From Roseicyclus sp. (GTDB taxonomy: Bacteria; Pseudomonadota; Alphaproteobacteria; Rhodobacterales; Rhodobacteraceae): 40,620 nt of DNA. The notes under the pieces were generated by a model, which worked only from the letters and a program-made list of their open reading frames with translations, searched no databases and had not been told where the DNA came from. The stretch spans positions 1 to 40,620 of the forward strand of contig JAGYKZ010000012.1 in the NCBI GenBank assembly GCA_018401385.1, written 5' to 3'. Of this stretch, positions 20,852-28,503 are shown piece by piece. How positions within the stretch are numbered: the stretch's first letter is position 1; the number at the start of each line of letters is the position of its first letter. The translations under genes and the position numbers were made by a program.

Positions 20852-23209
20852 TTAATTATTGGGCAGAAGGTCTGGCACGATGGTCACGATACCCGGGAAG
20901 AGCCACAAGATACCCAAGCCCAGGACCTGGATCAAAACGAAGGGGATCACGCCGCGATAGATGTGCTGCGTGGTCACGCTGGCAGGGGCCACCCCGCGCA
21001 GGTAGAAGAGCGCAAAGCCAAATGGCGGCGTCAAGAAGGAGGTCTGCAAATTGACCGCAATCATGATGGTCACCCATTTGGGATCCAACGTCCCGCCATA
21101 GATCACCGGCCCCACAATCGGGATCACGATGTAAATGATTTCCAAGAAGTCCAACACGAACCCAAGGATAAACAGGATCAGCATCACCAAAAGGAACACG
21201 ACCATTTCATTGTCAAAGGCCCGCAGGAATTGCTGGATGTGATGCTCACCCCCGAAAGAGATCAGCACAAGGTTCAACAATTGCGACCCGATCAGAATGG
21301 TAAAGACCATGGAGGTCACCTTGGCGGTTTCGCGCACCACGGGGGTCAAGACGCTGCGGCGGTAGAGAACATAGCAGCTGTAAAGCAACCCGCCGAAGGC
21401 GAAATGATAGGCGAATTGTGCCACGATATAGGCCACCCAATCCTCCAGTGGCACCACGGCGCGTCCGACACGCAAATCAAAGTTCACACCCACCAAGATC
21501 AGGATGACCAGCGCAAAGGAGGCCCAAATCACAATCTTGGATTTGCGGTCCTCCTCGCTCAACTTGCGATGCGCGGCCAACATGATCGCGCCCGCCGCCC
21601 CCAATGCCGCCGCAGGGGTCGGGTTGGAAATGCCGCCAAGGATGGACCCCAACACGGCCACAATTAGCACCAATGGCGGGAAGACCACGCGCAGCAGATC
21701 GTTTTTCGACATCCGGATCATCGCTTCGCGGCAGCCGTAAACGGCCATAACAAACGGGATGGCCAGATATATCCACGCGGTTCCCGGGCTGGTCGCGGGG
21801 GTGATATAGAGCATATCCACCGCAAAGGCCAAAGCCACACCAATCCCACCGATAAGAAGCGGACGCGGGTCATGGCTTGGGGCGACACCGCGCGCGGTGG
21901 TCAAGATCAGGGCAAAAAGAATGAAAATCGCCGTCACCCCTGATCCAATCGGTGCCGCATTGGCCACTGCGGCCATGCGCGCGGCATCCATTTCCTCTGG
22001 GGTCAACTCGCGGGTTGACGTGCTTGCGCCCGAGGCGGCAATCTCGGCGGTTTCGGCAACCGCTTGATCCCATGCCGCTTGACCGTGAAGATCAATCATC
22101 GCCGCTTGACAGGTCTCGGACACATTGGTGCGCAAACTGGCCGAGCGGCTGTTGTTTTCCATATTCGAGATCATGATCGACTGGCTGCCAATCACACCAT
22201 TGTTGGCCCCCACAATCACCGCAAAGATCAATGCGGCAGGCGCCAACAGGAACCAGGTCAGGGCTTCGTTGCGGGTGATCGGATTGGGGTTTGTTGCCCC
22301 CATTTGCACCGCAGGGGCCTTGGTCGGGTTGAGCAGCGCAAAACCAAAGGCATAGGCCCCATAGAGAAATGCCAAGAATATCCCCGGCAAAACCGCCGCT
22401 TGGAACAAGGTGCCCACGGACAATACCGCAGGCTTCCCCAAAAACGTCAGCGCATCGCTACAGCCCGCCACTTGGGCGCGGGTTTCTTGGCCTGTGGCGT
22501 AAAGATCACCCACAAGCGTGCCCAACAGAACGATCACAATAGAGGGCGGGATGATCTGCCCCAAAGTGCCAGAGGCCGCAATGACCCCCGTTGCCAATTC
22601 TGGCGAATAATTGTTGCGCAACATCGTGGGCAGGGCGAGCAAGCCCATGGTGACCACAGTTGCCCCCACGATCCCTGTTGAGGCGGCAAGAAACGCACCC
22701 ACGATCACGATGGAGACGGCCAAACCACCCGGAAGCGGCCCAAAGACACGGGCCATCGTGGTCAGCAAATCATCCGCGATTTTCGAGCGCTCCAGCGTGA
22801 TGCCCATCAAAACAAACATCAAAACCGCCAGCAGGGTTTCAATCGATTGGCCCGCGATCACGCGCTCATTCATACGATTGACGATGAAGGAGATATTGCG
22901 ATCCATCGCCATTTCCCAACCACCAGGAAACAGCGGTTGCTCAACCCGCGGCAATTCAGGGTGTCGGAACACCGACACGCTTTCGCGCACCACGCCAGAG
23001 TCAATCAGCGCACGATATTGATCCGATGCCGTATCAATCGCCTGATGGATCAACAGCCCCGCGGAATCGAGCGCGGCGATAATCGCAAAGGAAATCACCC
23101 CTGCCCCGCCGATGGCGAAGGCCACAGGAAAGCCTGTCATGATCCCGCCAAACAGTGTCAGGAACACGATTATCAGACCGATCTCAACTCCATCCAATCC
23201 AAAAATCAT
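20852..23209 (-). CDS. TRAP transporter large permease subunit (DctM-like, extended)
   Basis: This is the ion-coupled membrane subunit of a TRAP uptake system. At 785 residues it is far longer than the usual 430 or so. N-terminal helices MIFGLDGVEIGLIIVFLTLFGGIMTGFPVAFAIGGAGVI and the core TLLAVLMFVLMGITLERSKIADDLL, FLAASTGIVGATVVTMGLLALP, VIAASGTLGQIIPPSIVIVLLG are DctM hallmarks. So are LDFLEIIYIVIPIVGPV and NLQTSFLTPPFGFALFYLRGVAP near the end. The extra length is a loop at about 55-110 and a large insert at about 320-620 with extra helices and a soluble stretch around DLHGQAAWDQAVAETAE. GAAGGAAAG precedes the ATG. Intact. Confidence 0.92.
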   Translation of the reverse strand: MIFGLDGVEIGLIIVFLTLFGGIMTGFPVAFAIGGAGVISFAIIAALDSAGLLIHQAIDTASDQYRALIDSGVVRESVSVFRHPELPRVEQPLFPGGWEMAMDRNISFIVNRMNERVIAGQSIETLLAVLMFVLMGITLERSKIADDLLTTMARVFGPLPGGLAVSIVIVGAFLAASTGIVGATVVTMGLLALPTMLRNNYSPELATGVIAASGTLGQIIPPSIVIVLLGTLVGDLYATGQETRAQVAGCSDALTFLGKPAVLSVGTLFQAAVLPGIFLAFLYGAYAFGFALLNPTKAPAVQMGATNPNPITRNEALTWFLLAPAALIFAVIVGANNGVIGSQSIMISNMENNSRSASLRTNVSETCQAAMIDLHGQAAWDQAVAETAEIAASGASTSTRELTPEEMDAARMAAVANAAPIGSGVTAIFILFALILTTARGVAPSHDPRPLLIGGIGVALAFAVDMLYITPATSPGTAWIYLAIPFVMAVYGCREAMIRMSKNDLLRVVFPPLVLIVAVLGSILGGISNPTPAAALGAAGAIMLAAHRKLSEEDRKSKIVIWASFALVILILVGVNFDLRVGRAVVPLEDWVAYIVAQFAYHFAFGGLLYSCYVLYRRSVLTPVVRETAKVTSMVFTILIGSQLLNLVLISFGGEHHIQQFLRAFDNEMVVFLLVMLILFILGFVLDFLEIIYIVIPIVGPVIYGGTLDPKWVTIMIAVNLQTSFLTPPFGFALFYLRGVAPASVTTQHIYRGVIPFVLIQVLGLGILWLFPGIVTIVPDLLPNN

Positions 23210-23248
23210 CTTGTTATCTTTCCTTCAGACAGGTCTCGGGCTTTGGGG

Positions 23249-24148
23249 TTAATGGCCTGCCGCGTGCAGCGCTTCGGTTTCCGCATCAAGCGGATCAAGG
23301 TCACGATATTTATCGGCGCTTTCTTCCCCCTCGATATATTCGAGCAGGGCGCGCCAGAACACCGCCATGGCGTGCAAGAACACCAAGACGCAGAAGGCAA
23401 CGATCAGCACCTTGAAAATAAAATAGGCATTAAAGCCATTGGGGCTAAAACCGATGGTTTCGACATTCCACCGCAGCACCCGCGCTTGCATCAACATACG
23501 ATCCAACTCACTGGAGGCGGAGGGGTTTGGCACCACCAAGTGACGCCACATAAAGAACCATGCATAAAGATAGGTCAAAACGGTTGCGGGCATCATGAAA
23601 ATCAGCGCTCCGAACATATCAACGATGCGCTTTGCGCGATGCTTCATGCCCGAATAAAACAGGTCCACGCGCACATGGCCGCCTTGCACGAATGTATAGG
23701 AGACGCAGAGACAGACGATCATCGCGTTGTAGAGTTTCAGCTCTTCGGCCCACCAAGACAGGTCTTGCGCGAAACTCAGGCCCAGTGGCCCCAACTGAAT
23801 GTCCGCCACGCGGAAGATGCGCTGCAAAAACACGATCATCACCTGCTGGAGCACCATGATCAAACCGACCCATGCCACGGTGCGGCCAAGACCATTGGCA
23901 AGCCCCTCCAGCCCGCGCACGAAAGACCAAAGGATCGCGCGGCGCCAGAACAGGCCCAGCGCGGTCACAACCATGAAGGCGGTGAATACAACGAAGAAAA
24001 ATTCGACCGATGCGCCATAATAGATGAAGCGCACGAGCGACTCGTTATTGCTCCAATCGAACCATGTTCCAGGGTTCAGCAGGGCGATTGCCAAATGATA
24101 GGGCGCCATCGCGATATTTGTGAAAACCCAGACTATGAAATCAATCAT
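23249..24148 (-). CDS. TRAP transporter small permease subunit (DctQ-like, long)
   Basis: The four-helix small membrane subunit that pairs with the large permease. It has 299 residues where 160-200 is usual. The conserved DctQ region is central: LYNAMIVCLCVSYTFVQGGHVRVDLFYSGM, where the G-HVRVDLF motif is diagnostic, followed by MMPATVLTYLYAWFFMWRH. Extra N-terminal helices (YYGASVEFFFVVFTAFMVVTALGLF) and a long loop account for the added size. AAGGATGG lies before the ATG. It sits 39 bp upstream of the large subunit and is intact. Confidence 0.9.
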   Translation of the reverse strand: MIDFIVWVFTNIAMAPYHLAIALLNPGTWFDWSNNESLVRFIYYGASVEFFFVVFTAFMVVTALGLFWRRAILWSFVRGLEGLANGLGRTVAWVGLIMVLQQVMIVFLQRIFRVADIQLGPLGLSFAQDLSWWAEELKLYNAMIVCLCVSYTFVQGGHVRVDLFYSGMKHRAKRIVDMFGALIFMMPATVLTYLYAWFFMWRHLVVPNPSASSELDRMLMQARVLRWNVETIGFSPNGFNAYFIFKVLIVAFCVLVFLHAMAVFWRALLEYIEGEESADKYRDLDPLDAETEALHAAGH

Positions 24149-24262
24149 CTGACCATCCTTGCAGCATCGGGTGTTGCAACCAAGTGCCGCGGGTTGGATG
24201 TGGCCGCAGGCTATGCGCCATCATCGGAAAATCACAGGCAACTTTGGGGTGATTAACAGATA

Positions 24263-24291
24263 CTCCTTCCCCGCGATCCGCGAGGAAGGAG
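24263..24291 (-). terminator. Intercistronic hairpin after the TRAP binding-protein gene
   Basis: CTCCTTCC (24263-24270) and GGAAGGAG (24284-24291) form 8 bp, continued inward by CGCG/CGCG beyond one mismatch around ATC. It lies just after the binding-protein stop (minus strand) and before the small permease gene. Such hairpins commonly let the binding protein be made in excess of the permease, by partial termination or mRNA protection. Confidence 0.65.
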
Positions 24292-24306
24292 CAAGGTTTC
24301 AAGCAA

Positions 24307-25392
24307 TCAAGCCGCGTTCACACGGTTACGCTGGCGCATATATTCGCCATCACCGATGTCAAACCAACCCACGGATTCACGCATCGCGGCGAAGTGGCTT
24401 TCTGCGACTTGCGCATAGATCGGATCATCCATGTTTTCGTCCAACACCTCTTTGGAGGCGCGGCCGAAGGCTTCCCAAACGTCGTCTGGGAACTGGCGTG
24501 TCTGCACACCTGCCGAACGCAGACGCTCAAGCGCCGCGCCGTTTTCCTGCAACGACATCGACAAGGATTTGGCGTTTGCTGCCGCACAGGCCGCTTCAAC
24601 GATCTGTTTTTGCGCGGTTGTGAAGCTTTCATAGACGTCAAGGTTGAACGACATGGTCAATGCCGAACCTGGCTCGTGGAAACCTGCGGTGTAGTAGATG
24701 CTGGTTGCTTCTTGGAAGCCCATACGCTCATCCGCGAAGGGGCCGATCCATTCCGCGCCGTCAATCTGACCCGAGGCCAGCGCCTGATAGATTTCGCCGC
24801 CCGGGATGTTCTGAACGGATGCACCCAGACGACCCAGCACCTGACCACCCTGACCAGGCATACGGAAGCGCAGACCCTGCAAATCTTCGGCAGAGTTGAT
24901 TTCTTTGTTGAACCAACCACCAGGCTGCATCGCGGTGTTGCCGCAGGTGAAGGACTTGAGGTTGAAGAGACCTGCAAGCTCATTGTGCAATTCGAAGCCG
25001 CCACGGTTGTAATACCAGTTTGCGAATTCCTGACCGGTCAAGCCGAACGGCACGGCCGTGAAGAACGCGAAAGCGGGGTGCTGGTTCAAGAAATAGTAAT
25101 CAGCTGAGTGATACATATCCGCCTGACCGGAGGATACAGCATCAAACACTTCAAACGCACCAACAAGGCTACCTGCGGGCATTTTGTTGATGGTCAGCGC
25201 GCCATCGGTCATTGCGGTGATGTAGTCAGCCGCCATCTGTGCCGCGTCATCGAAGATTGCAAAACCATCGGGAACCGAAGTCACCAAGGTCAATGTGCGG
25301 TTGCCCTGAGCATAGAGCGGTGCTGCCAAGGTAGATGCTGCGGCTGCAGTTCCCCCAAGGGCAGACGTTCTCAAGAAAGAACGACGATCCAT
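24307..25392 (-). CDS. TRAP transporter substrate-binding protein (DctP/TakP-like), Tat-exported
   Basis: A 361-residue periplasmic binding protein. The N-terminus MDRRSFLRTSALGGTAAAASTLAAPLYAQ is a twin-arginine (RRSFLR) signal with an A-x-A type site near YAQ. The mature part has the DctP fold: LVTSVPDGFAIFDDAAQMAADYI, GQADMYHSADYYFLNQHPAFAFFTAVPFG, GLRFRMPGQGGQVLGRLGAS with the family Arg that clamps the substrate carboxylate, and GAEWIGPFADERMGF. The sequence is closest in style to TakP, which binds 2-oxo acids with sodium; that substrate is an inference. GGGAGGA precedes the ATG. First gene of the TRAP operon. Confidence 0.92.
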   Translation of the reverse strand: MDRRSFLRTSALGGTAAAASTLAAPLYAQGNRTLTLVTSVPDGFAIFDDAAQMAADYITAMTDGALTINKMPAGSLVGAFEVFDAVSSGQADMYHSADYYFLNQHPAFAFFTAVPFGLTGQEFANWYYNRGGFELHNELAGLFNLKSFTCGNTAMQPGGWFNKEINSAEDLQGLRFRMPGQGGQVLGRLGASVQNIPGGEIYQALASGQIDGAEWIGPFADERMGFQEATSIYYTAGFHEPGSALTMSFNLDVYESFTTAQKQIVEAACAAANAKSLSMSLQENGAALERLRSAGVQTRQFPDDVWEAFGRASKEVLDENMDDPIYAQVAESHFAAMRESVGWFDIGDGEYMRQRNRVNAA

Positions 25393-25982: not shown

Positions 25983-26011
25983 TTGACCTCCCCAAAACTC
26001 ACTCCTAATGT
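25983..26011 (+). promoter_or_regulatory. ilvIH promoter
   Basis: TTGACC (25983-25988), a 17-base spacer and TAATGT (26006-26011) form a near-consensus vegetative promoter. Transcription would start near 26018, a short distance before the leader peptide. Confidence 0.65.
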
Positions 26012-26035
26012 CCGCTCAGAATTATGGAGTTCGGA

Positions 26036-26089
26036 ATGCTTGAAGCGGTGGTCGTGAATGTGGGGATGAAGACGCGCATGGGTCGGTGA
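26036..26089 (+). CDS. ilvIH leader peptide (valine-rich)
   Basis: A 17-codon frame, MLEAVVVNVGMKTRMGR, ends at the TGA at 26087-26089. GGAG lies 6 bases before its ATG. An in-frame ATG at 26024 would add four residues. Four of codons 5-9 are valine, one of the products of the pathway. The frame sits between a good promoter and an intrinsic terminator whose 3' arm can pair with sequence overlapping the leader stop codon. This is the arrangement of transcription attenuation by ribosome stalling: valine shortage would stall the ribosome on the Val codons and leave the antiterminator strand free. The peptide itself need have no other function. Confidence 0.75.
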   Translation: MLEAVVVNVGMKTRMGR

Positions 26090-26143
26090 CGATAACCATA
26101 GTGACCCCCATGCGCCCTCGGAACAGTCACCGAGGGCTTTTTT
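26074..26143 (+). promoter_or_regulatory. Transcription attenuator of ilvIH
   Basis: Terminator: GCCCTCGG (26114-26121) pairs with CCGAGGGC (26130-26137), followed by six T (26138-26143). Antiterminator: TCGGTGAC (26083-26090) is exactly complementary to GTCACCGA (26126-26133) in the terminator's 3' arm. A further hairpin joins GCGCATGGGTC (26074-26084) to GACCCCCATGCGC (26103-26115) with a two-base bulge. A ribosome at the leader stop would cover 26083-26090 and favour termination. Confidence 0.8.
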
Positions 26144-26182
26144 ATGCCAAGACCGTGAGACGTAAATGAAGGATAAAGACAG

Positions 26183-27927
26183 ATGACTCGTCAGATGACA
26201 GGCGCAAAAATGGTGGTCGAAGCCTTGATCGAACAGGGCGTTGATACGGTATTTGGATATCCTGGTGGGGCTGTGCTGCCCATCTATGACGAAATCTTTC
26301 AGCAAAATCATATTCGCCACATCCTTGTGCGCCATGAACAAGGTGCTGTGCACGCGGCGGAGGGCTATGCGCGTTCTACGGGCAAACCCGGTGTTGTTTT
26401 GGTTACCTCTGGCCCTGGTGCCACCAATGCCGTGACAGGTTTGGTGGATGCCTTGATGGACTCCATACCCATCGTTGTGCTGACCGGTCAGGTTCCAACC
26501 TTCATGATTGGCTCGGATGCATTCCAAGAGGCGGACACGGTTGGCATCACCCGCCCTGCACCAAGATGAACTGGTACGGTGAAGATGCGGATCGTCTATA
26601 TCCACCGTTCACGAGCGTTTCACATCGCCACCAAAAACCCGCCCAGTCCCATTTTGATGACATCCCCAAAAGATGTGCAATTCGCCACAGGAACCTATGT
26701 GGACAAACCGCATAAAACAAACCACTACGCCCAAGTATCAAAACATTTCCGCGATGATCCCACCTGGTCGCCCTGATCGAGACCGCCGAACGCCCGGTGT
26801 TCTACACCGGCGGCGGCGTCATCAATTCCGGCCCGGCGGCCAGCCAGTTGCTGCGCGAACTGGTGGAAGCGACCGGATTTCCCATCACCTCGACCCTGAT
26901 GGGGCTTGGGGCCTATCCCGCCTCGGGCGCGAAATGGCTGGGAATGTTGGGGATGCACGGCCTGTATGAGGCGAATCTGACCATGCATGGCTGCGATTTG
27001 ATGATCAATATCGGGGCGCGGTTTGACGACCGCATCACGGGGCGCATCAACGCCTTTTCACCAAACAGCCGCAAGGCCCATGTGGATATTGACCCCTCCT
27101 CGATCAACAAGGTGATCCATGCCGATTTTCCGATTATCGGCGATGTGGCCCATGTGTTGGAGGATATGCTGCGCATCTGGAAATCGCGCGGCAGCAAAAC
27201 AAATTCCGCCGCCATCAAAAAGTGGTGGAGCCAGATCGAAGAATGGCGCGGGGTGAAATGCCTCAGCTATAAAAACTCGGAAAAAACAATCAAACCGCAA
27301 TATGCGCTCGAACGCCTAGAGGCGCTGACCAAGGGGATGGATCGCTACATCACCACCGAAGTCGGGCAACACCAAATGTGGGCCGCGCAATATTTGGGTT
27401 TTGAAGATCCCAATCGCTGGATGACCTCAGGCGGGCTTGGCACAATGGGCTATGGCACCCCTGCCTCCATCGGGGTGCAGGTGGCCCATCCTGATGCCTT
27501 GGTCATCAATGTCGCGGGCGAGGCATCATGGCTGATGAATATGCAGGAAATGGGCACCGCCGTGCAATACCGCCTGCCTGTGAAACAGTTCATCATGAAT
27601 AACGAGCGCCTTGGCATGGTGCGCCAATGGCAGGAATTGCTGCATGGCGAGCGCTATAGCCATTCATGGTCCGAGGCCCTGCCCGATTTCGTGAAACTGG
27701 CGGAGGCTTTTGGCTGCAAGGGGATCAAATGCGACAACCCCGATGATCTGGATGAAGCGATCAAGGAAATGCTCGCCTATGACGGGCCTGTGATTTTCGA
27801 CTGTCTGGTGGAAAAGCATGAAAACTGCTTCCCGATGATCCCATCGGGCAAGGCACATAATGAAATGTTGTTGGGCGAGGCTGAAACCCAAGGCGTGATT
27901 GACGCCAAGGGCAGCGTCTTGGTCTAG
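26183..27927 (+). CDS. ilvI: Acetolactate synthase large subunit (frameshifted near 26560-26765)
   Basis: The thiamine-diphosphate enzyme that makes acetolactate and acetohydroxybutyrate in valine, leucine and isoleucine synthesis. The first 128 codons are clean ([35 protein letters not shown], catalytic Glu in [21 protein letters not shown]). From 26797 the frame is clean again: [36 protein letters not shown], and [17 protein letters not shown]. Between them about 200 bases carry several indels, but [15 protein letters not shown]-like sequence is still readable. The thiamine-binding motif reads GEASWLMN instead of the usual GDGS...N. It begins 40 bases after the attenuator and is followed by ilvH. 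Confidence 0.92.
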
Positions 27928-27942
27928 GGAAAGGGTGTTATC

Positions 27943-28503
27943 ATGTCTCCGCTCAATATTGAAAAAGGCTCCAGCAGCCATTCCGCCTATGATCTGCGCA
28001 GCCATATGTCGGATGCGATTGAAACCCATACATTGGCCGTGTTGGTGCAAAACGAAGCGGGCGTTCTGGCCCGCGTGATTGGCCTGTTTTCGGGCCGTGG
28101 CTATAACATCGAAAGCCTGACCGTGGCCGAGGTGGATCATGCGGGGCATCGCTCACGCATCACCATTGTCACCTCTGGCACGCCGCAGGTGATCAACCAG
28201 ATCAAAATGCAGCTGGAGCGCATGGTGCCCGTCCATGAGGTGCATGACCTGACTGTGGAAGGCGCGATGGTCAGCCGCGAATTGGCGCTGTTCAAGGTCA
28301 AGGGGAAAGGCGAGCATCGCGTGGAGGCGTTGCGCATCGCCGAGATTTTCCGCGCCAATGTCGTGGACAGCACCTTGGAAAGCTTTGTCTTTGAAATCAC
28401 GGGCACGCCCGAAAAAATCGATGCTTTTGCGGATCTGATGCGCCCTTTGGGATTGTTGGAGGTCGCGCGCACGGGTGTTGCGGCCATCGCGCGCGGCGTC
28501 TGA
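27943..28503 (+). CDS. ilvH: Acetolactate synthase small (regulatory) subunit
   Basis: It activates the large subunit and confers valine feedback inhibition. The N-terminal ACT domain is visible as HTLAVLVQNEAGVLARVIGLFSGRGYNIESLTVAEVDHAGHRSRITIVTSG (about 28-78), with NEAGVL and GRGYNI lining the valine site. The C-terminal ACT-like half begins near VSRELALFKVKGKG. The protein has 186 residues, with about 25 residues before the ACT domain, as is usual in alphaproteobacteria. It starts 16 bp after ilvI and forms an operon with it. Intact. Confidence 0.95.
   Translation: MSPLNIEKGSSSHSAYDLRSHMSDAIETHTLAVLVQNEAGVLARVIGLFSGRGYNIESLTVAEVDHAGHRSRITIVTSGTPQVINQIKMQLERMVPVHEVHDLTVEGAMVSRELALFKVKGKGEHRVEALRIAEIFRANVVDSTLESFVFEITGTPEKIDAFADLMRPLGLLEVARTGVAAIARGV

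Follow-up and report, generated by a model that had tools for sequence, protein, structure and literature searches.

Architecture of the region upstream of ilvIH

The DNA examined here (hereafter the window) is a 40,620-nucleotide stretch from Roseicyclus sp. in which ilvIH, the genes for the large and small subunits of acetolactate synthase, are preceded by a compact set of features on the forward (+) strand that together resemble a transcription attenuator. First among these is a probable promoter (25983–26010), in which TTGACC (25983–25988) is followed after 16 nt by CTAATG (26005–26010). A Shine-Dalgarno-like (SD-like) GGAG (26026–26029) lies 6 nt 5′ of the ATG at 26036, where a 17-codon leader open reading frame (ORF), MLEAVVVNVGMKTRMGR, begins (26036–26089); it ends with TGA at 26087–26089. 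Val occupies codons 5, 6, 7, and 9, giving the control codons GTG GTC GTG AAT GTG (Val Val Val Asn Val; 26048–26062), whereas the single Leu is codon 2 and Ile is absent. Promoter, SD-like motif, and leader are assigned from the sequence and from conservation in relatives, and the control codons from the sequence and a comparison within the family.

Two hairpins complete the element, each assigned from conservation and pair counts. The proposed antiterminator hairpin, also read from the sequence, has its 5′ arm, GCGCATGGG (26074–26082), within the leader ORF and its 3′ arm, CCCATGCGC, at 26107–26115. The last two bases of that arm (26114–26115) are common to the second structure, an intrinsic terminator (26114–26143) picked up by a terminator scan. 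Its arms, GCCCTCGG (26114–26121) and CCGAGGGC (26130–26137), enclose an 8-nt loop and are followed by six T at 26138–26143, as read from the sequence. A sequence-only reading of this DNA had proposed the promoter, a 17-codon leader with four Val codons in five and no Ile, and a terminator with six T. All of these are present, and the promoter went unreported in a sigma-70 scan of the window.

Because shuffled sequence averages 1.6 terminator sites, the scan is not evidence by itself, even though 26114–26143 was the sole site in 1.1 kb. More telling is the folding of 26073–26145 to −35.4 kcal/mol (z −5.25), which none of 200 shuffles equaled; the longer stretch 26010–26145 is less striking (z −1.94, with 5 of 200 shuffles equal or better). 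Rfam 15 covariance models (T-box, riboswitch, known leaders) gave no match in the window at gathering or relaxed thresholds, and a scan of 15 loci from relatives returned only a tRNA. What places the layout beyond chance is its conservation in relatives. On these grounds we regard the layout described before ilvIH as confirmed, and by its anatomy and conservation as that of an attenuator; all that follows about its regulation is what we infer from them.

Conservation of the layout among relatives

The IlvI protein is present in 87 of 101 genomes (E 1e-80). Their upstream regions yielded 70 distinct loci, the window counted once, with 60 from the family of the window (f1) and 10 from other families. 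The f1 loci come from 59 of the 61 f1 genomes that have ilvI; two genomes (G020, G024) were not taken, and one (G027) contributes two loci. This last genome has two ilvI genes (L010, L070), both with a canonical leader as defined below: MADIVILVGKWRMGR and MGPILVVPKRMRMGR.

A terminator with its T tract is in place at 58 of the 60 f1 loci. The misses are L059, which has none, and L056, a doubtful case whose weak terminator-like site was judged not to be a terminator; L056 was scored but stands outside the 58-sequence alignment (A1), in which misaligned divergent rows were retained. Among the 59 scored f1 loci, 47 show every part of the layout and a leader whose last codons read R-M-x-x-stop; we call these canonical, and in 36 of them the leader is 15 codons long. 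Conservation of the leader frame, which the sequence-only reading had named as a check on its proposal, is therefore found in relatives. A second alignment (A2) holds 40 sequences: 39 of the 47 plus L047, whose leader ends RMGLS-stop and which is not itself canonical. The leader before ilvI in G004 (L048), MRHNVVLI-stop, differs from all 47 canonical ones in that its stop immediately follows the control codons.

The upstream signals are conserved as well. TTGAC is found upstream in 57 of 58 relatives, the exception (L031) being N-masked there, and (A/C)TA(A/G) follows exactly 16 nt downstream in 41 of the 57. An SD-like stretch precedes 45 of the 47 canonical leaders, with L031 again masked. 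More widely, at least 118 stretches in named genome contigs match the 19-base pattern GCGCATGGGYCGGTRACGR, and 111 of those listed have ilvI within 600 nt downstream. The seven listed loci that lack it comprise five from other groups, L124 at the edge of its stretch, and L079. Most of the matches listed carry the names of Rhodobacteraceae, Paracoccaceae, or genera that belong to them. A looser pattern matched 62 of 385 genomes, mostly at unrelated-looking places, only a few of which were followed.

Two hairpins that share a few base pairs

Paired changes argue that both structures are maintained. When pairs were counted over all 58 rows of A1, using structures drawn from the consensus, standard pairs filled 92.7% of the hairpin cells (88.4 on average in shuffles) and 91.5% of the terminator cells (86.2). 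Both sides had changed in 12 cells of the hairpin (mean 2.1) and in 26 of the terminator (mean 7.9). None of 500 shuffles reached any of these values; one of 500 matched the number of terminator pairs that show a two-sided change. In divergent relatives (L053 and L058, for example), the arms differ in sequence yet remain complementary. RNAalifold run on all 58 sequences returned six pairs, all within the terminator, because MAFFT misaligns divergent leaders. An inner GGT:ACC helix in the hairpin loop is paired in 62% of cells, but 61 of 500 shuffles equal this, and we do not claim it.

The sequence-only reading had assigned the antiterminator differently. It noted that 26083–26090 is exactly complementary to 26126–26133, which is correct for the window, and proposed that this helix removes the 3′ arm of the terminator, leaving hairpin 26074–26115 as an accessory. 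Watson-Crick counts in the four genomes of the genus (8 pairs in the window and 6, 7, and 7 in the others) speak for such a helix. In the 43 other canonical relatives, however, it averages 3.63 pairs, as compared with 3.62 for partners taken from other genomes and 3.50 for shuffled ones. None of the 43 reaches seven Watson-Crick pairs, and only L023 and L031 do so when G-U pairs are allowed. The helix is thus confined to this genus, and we consider it unlikely to be the antiterminator. Of the three stems that the same reading had suggested examining for covariation, the hairpin and the terminator rise above shuffles, whereas the 26083–26090 helix fails outside the genus. Its "third hairpin," at 26074–26115, which it had marked as worth comparing, proves to be the conserved partner of the terminator.

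Hairpin and terminator overlap by two bases in 28 of the 47 canonical loci, by three in 15, by one in 3, and not at all in 1, so that 43 have an overlap of two or three at the base of the terminator. By prediction, the median terminator energy of −14.8 kcal/mol weakens to −8.9 without these pairs (a loss of about 6 kcal/mol). A full hairpin with a short terminator and a short hairpin with a full terminator differ by a median of only 0.4 kcal/mol in favor of the full terminator (range −1.1 to +0.4). One base of the shared pairs, the third position of codon −1 counted from the RMGR arginine (26074, in codon 13, in the window), is G in 47 of 47 loci despite ten different amino acids at that codon, which argues for selection on the RNA rather than the peptide. 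The same G in the 111 named loci was part of the search pattern and is no evidence. In 45 of 47 loci, 3–5 nt separate the 5′ arm of the hairpin from the stop codon downstream of it, and the control codons end three codons 5′ of the hairpin. A ribosome covers about 12–13 nt beyond its A site. This placement of stop and control codons suits a switch that is read by a ribosome.

Seen directly are the anatomy and its conservation, the paired changes, the bases common to both hairpins, and, in canonical members, a stop codon at a fixed position. From them we infer how ribosome occupancy would matter, that termination would be lost without the basal pairs, and that Val would be the signal. When charged tRNA-Val is ample (in most relatives also tRNA-Leu and tRNA-Ile), a ribosome would reach the stop at 26087–26089 and cover the 5′ arm at 26074–26082. 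The terminator at 26114–26137 could then close fully beside the T tract, and transcription would end. A ribosome stalled on the Val codons at 26048–26062 would instead leave the 5′ arm just downstream free, and hairpin 26074–26115 would form first. By holding 26114–26115, the bases that close the base of the terminator, it would allow RNA polymerase to continue into ilvIH. The toggle would operate over two or three shared pairs, making it unnecessary to unfold the whole terminator. We give a probability of about 0.75 to this reading, a ribosome-mediated transcription attenuator of ilvIH that toggles over two or three shared base pairs. The earlier proposal of a ribosome-mediated ilvIH attenuator is thus retained in its anatomy, leader frame, and two hairpins, and replaced in the identity of the antiterminator.

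Several observations weigh against the shared-base toggle. Shifting the structures by one to three columns lowers pairing to 22–64% of cells in the hairpin and 37–63% in the terminator, yet still leaves up to 12 cells with two-sided changes, so the covariation of the hairpin is modest; moreover, pair-count shuffle control (a) keeps no relatedness. The computed folds of the window hold hairpin and terminator together, and their mutual exclusion must therefore rest on kinetics and on two or three base pairs. A gap of 2–5 bases separates the hairpin from the terminator in 8 of the 12 non-canonical loci scored, as judged by a helix finder that accepts only uninterrupted stems near the terminator. 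Overlap occurs in the other four (L036, L047, L056, and L071, with L056 and L071 doubtful). The toggle is therefore not general, and for this reason we lowered our estimate from 0.8 to the value given above. In addition, ilvI itself is broken in this assembly (see below). Finally, the hairpin arms vary little, which points to a constraint beyond pairing.

The nature of that extra constraint raises another possibility, namely that the main role of the leader RNA, once terminated, is that of a small RNA acting in trans. Such a role would account for the conserved arm and loop, and the relatives' CGCATGGGCCGGTAACGG (Arg-Met-Gly-Arg-stop and the bases after it; 26075–26092 in the window) is conserved in A2 above what pairing needs. 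There is also a precedent in rnTrpL of Sinorhizobium meliloti (PMC10117765). Because the cis layout is complete without it, we think a main role in trans very improbable.

Among the 47 canonical loci we found no conserved helix, whether a protector or an anti-antiterminator, joining the leader to the hairpin or to the 3′ half. The longest helices average 4.53 / 4.57 pairs with their own partners versus 4.72 / 4.71 with those of other genomes, and in the first of these two comparisons none of the 47 had seven pairs or more.

Control codons and the amino acid register

In f1 leaders, a run of Leu, Val, and Ile occupies codons −8 to −4 from the arginine of RMGR, and in the genus of the window it lies one codon further upstream. 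Two or more of the three occur in 46 of the 47 canonical ilvI leaders, mostly at five fixed codons. Anatomy and conservation support Val as the main control residue, as the sequence-only reading had it. Its further suggestion of a single-amino-acid register holds within the genus, where all four genomes read VVVNV with no Ile, and does not extend beyond it. Leu, Val, and Ile are all present in 36 of the 47 canonical leaders, and Ile is found in 38 and absent from 9.

Codon choice in the leaders is also distinctive. Relative to the first part of ilvI, leaders prefer GTA, CTA, and CTT and avoid GTG and CTG. Over the 5′ part of ilvI at the same loci, 45 of 660 Val codons are GTA and 13 of 361 Leu codons are CTA; in leaders the counts are 63 of 134 and 22 of 71. 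Of the 63 leader GTA codons, 53 occupy two positions. The genus of the window, where codons are few, uses mostly GTG for Val (codon test: Val, p 0.054; Leu, p 0.031). A bias of this kind has been explained in the literature by isoacceptors being charged selectively (PMC1183508). The leader bias is compatible with it, and we report it as such without drawing proof from it.

A related module upstream of a Bcr/CflA-type transporter

A covariance model built from 40 ilvI leaders (R1) was scanned against 289 genomes of the class (E 0.01) and matched 36; the window aside, the nine highest-scoring matches were followed. Six of these lie outside f1 (76 to 35 bits: G208, G061, G244, G346, G256, and G093) and precede not ilvI but a major facilitator superfamily (MFS)-type transporter gene. 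Two of the MFS proteins were scanned, and both exceed the cut-off of TIGR00710 (Bcr/CflA family efflux MFS transporter). We assign this module to L201, L202/L237, L203–L206, L238, L239, and L243. Its leaders are mostly Val-rich and include MHILIVVVGERRLDR and MNPKSVVVVVSRRCMVR, whereas MYLSNTAGVGARRPGR and MSIRIVSQYVWRAVL have no Val run. By blastn, the element at L202 is 80% identical over 82 nt to the ilvI element at L010 (E 5e-11, database size set to 4 Mb).

A second model (R2), applied to 42 MFS loci (one per genome), matched four: L237 from G061 and those of the f1 genomes G011, G007, and G004. Because R2 was built with these four, their matches arise by construction, whereas its absence from the other 38 does not. 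Of 30 selected genomes scanned with R2, 25 gave a match (E 0.01), none with more than one strong copy; G034 has a weak second copy of 27 bits. The three f1 genomes have a non-canonical leader before their own ilvI (L071, L049, and L048). A midpoint-rooted tree of 47 MFS proteins has a clade of 25 (support 0.70) that unites the nine whose genes carry the module with 16 that are module-free. An IlvI tree, poorly resolved with about 106 residues and one arbitrary outgroup, sets G011, G007, and G004 apart from the main canonical group; six non-canonical loci fall within that group as well. Deep f1 lineages already have other Leu/Val/Ile leaders before ilvI.

The module thus sits before the transporter gene in other Alphaproteobacteria and deep members of f1 and before ilvI in most of f1, a distribution that fits relocation. 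Perhaps one module, Val-rich, ending Arg-x-x-Arg-stop in most copies, and carrying the loop CCGGTAACGG and a few shared bases, moved between the MFS transporter gene and ilvI, a suggestion that we make tentatively and with somewhat more doubt than belief. Alternatively, the module may have arisen independently before each gene under a common constraint, or been lost from the MFS gene. If the relocation is true, either the transporter has a part in branched-chain amino acid (BCAA) physiology, or what the leader reads is not Val supply alone but slowed translation more broadly. The presence of the module before the transporter gene allows the idea that a regulatory RNA can change its gene to be tested, and offers a clue to what the transporter does.

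The transporter association also bears on what the leader senses. It might respond to something other than Val starvation, such as translation slowed by a ribosome-targeting drug, with Arg-Met-Gly-Arg-stop serving as a nascent-peptide or termination signal. The conservation of these residues and of the bases around the stop above pairing needs would fit such a signal, as would a module before a Bcr/CflA-type gene. Furthermore, Bacillus subtilis bmrCD provides a case of a multidrug transporter controlled by a leader-peptide attenuator (PMC4191407). However, the Leu, Val, and Ile residues at mostly fixed codons in all but one canonical ilvI leader, the position before a BCAA operon, and the wobble G of codon −1, which indicates an RNA rather than a peptide constraint there, make this improbable, and we favor starvation for Val as the signal.

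Relation to known attenuators

The BCAA antiterminators of Escherichia coli and Salmonella typhimurium take most of the 5′ arm of the terminator, whereas only two or three bases are common to both hairpins here. The leu, ilvGMEDA, and ilvBN attenuators of those species otherwise resemble the present proposal in that ribosomes stall on BCAA codons (PMC6123439, PMC1183508). Attenuation of BCAA operons is established in Alphaproteobacteria, including the ilvBN/ilvIH attenuator of Caulobacter crescentus (Tarleton et al. 1994, as cited in PMC4117421). As described in that citing article, it shares with the window an alphaproteobacterial acetolactate synthase operon, a leader with BCAA codons, and a rho-independent terminator, the hairpins lying outside the comparison. 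A cis-regulatory element before ilvIH in another alphaproteobacterium, S. meliloti, is similar by description (Vitreschak et al. 2004, cited in PMC2573895). Within Rhodobacterales, the Cys leader uORFC-8-2 before cysS is a candidate leader-peptide attenuator for another gene and amino acid (PMC8632094).

There is a likeness in working to the "fast attenuator" of Corynebacterium glutamicum ilvBNC, in which a boundary trinucleotide, GCC, is common to terminator and antiterminator. There, stem mutations in the terminator region common to both hairpins raised expression 7–8-fold, and the control codons are CUU and GUA, both of which are also enriched in f1 leaders (PMC11857589). A shared boundary GC(C) and near-equal energies of the two states are likewise found here. 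In contrast, C. glutamicum belongs to another phylum, its leader starts almost at the mRNA 5′ end, and it has a third hairpin, the anti-antiterminator H1 (PMC11857589), for which we found no conserved counterpart. For lack of such an H1, we propose a likeness in working, not membership. The 47 natural sequences, with a switch of two or three pairs and an RNA-constrained wobble base, offer a comparative test of the mechanism proposed for Corynebacterium ilvBNC.

As BCAA operon attenuation is textbook knowledge, the element of the window is no surprise in kind. The principle is known; the design in canonical members is one of minimal overlap, and the second gene was unexpected. Searches confined to an open-access library listed no paper with a title or abstract on an ilvI leader from Rhodobacteraceae, or on a leader of this kind before a Bcr/CflA gene, and such leaders may be in print elsewhere.

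Downstream and neighboring genes

The ilvI gene (26183–27927, + strand) consists of two open pieces, its frame being broken in this assembly at about 26553–26784, where several small insertions and deletions all fall within some 230 bases. Three relatives in the genus (G001–G003) have an intact ilvI with open frames of 586–590 amino acids. For this reason, an error in the assembly, which is 69% complete, seems likelier than a pseudogene. Downstream lies ilvH (27943–28503, + strand), which matches PRK11895 above its cut-off. On the minus strand, divergent from ilvIH, are probable tripartite ATP-independent periplasmic (TRAP) transporter genes at 20852–25392. The binding protein, the one product of this cluster that was scanned, matches DctP models with scores below their cut-offs, and it is accompanied by putative permeases.
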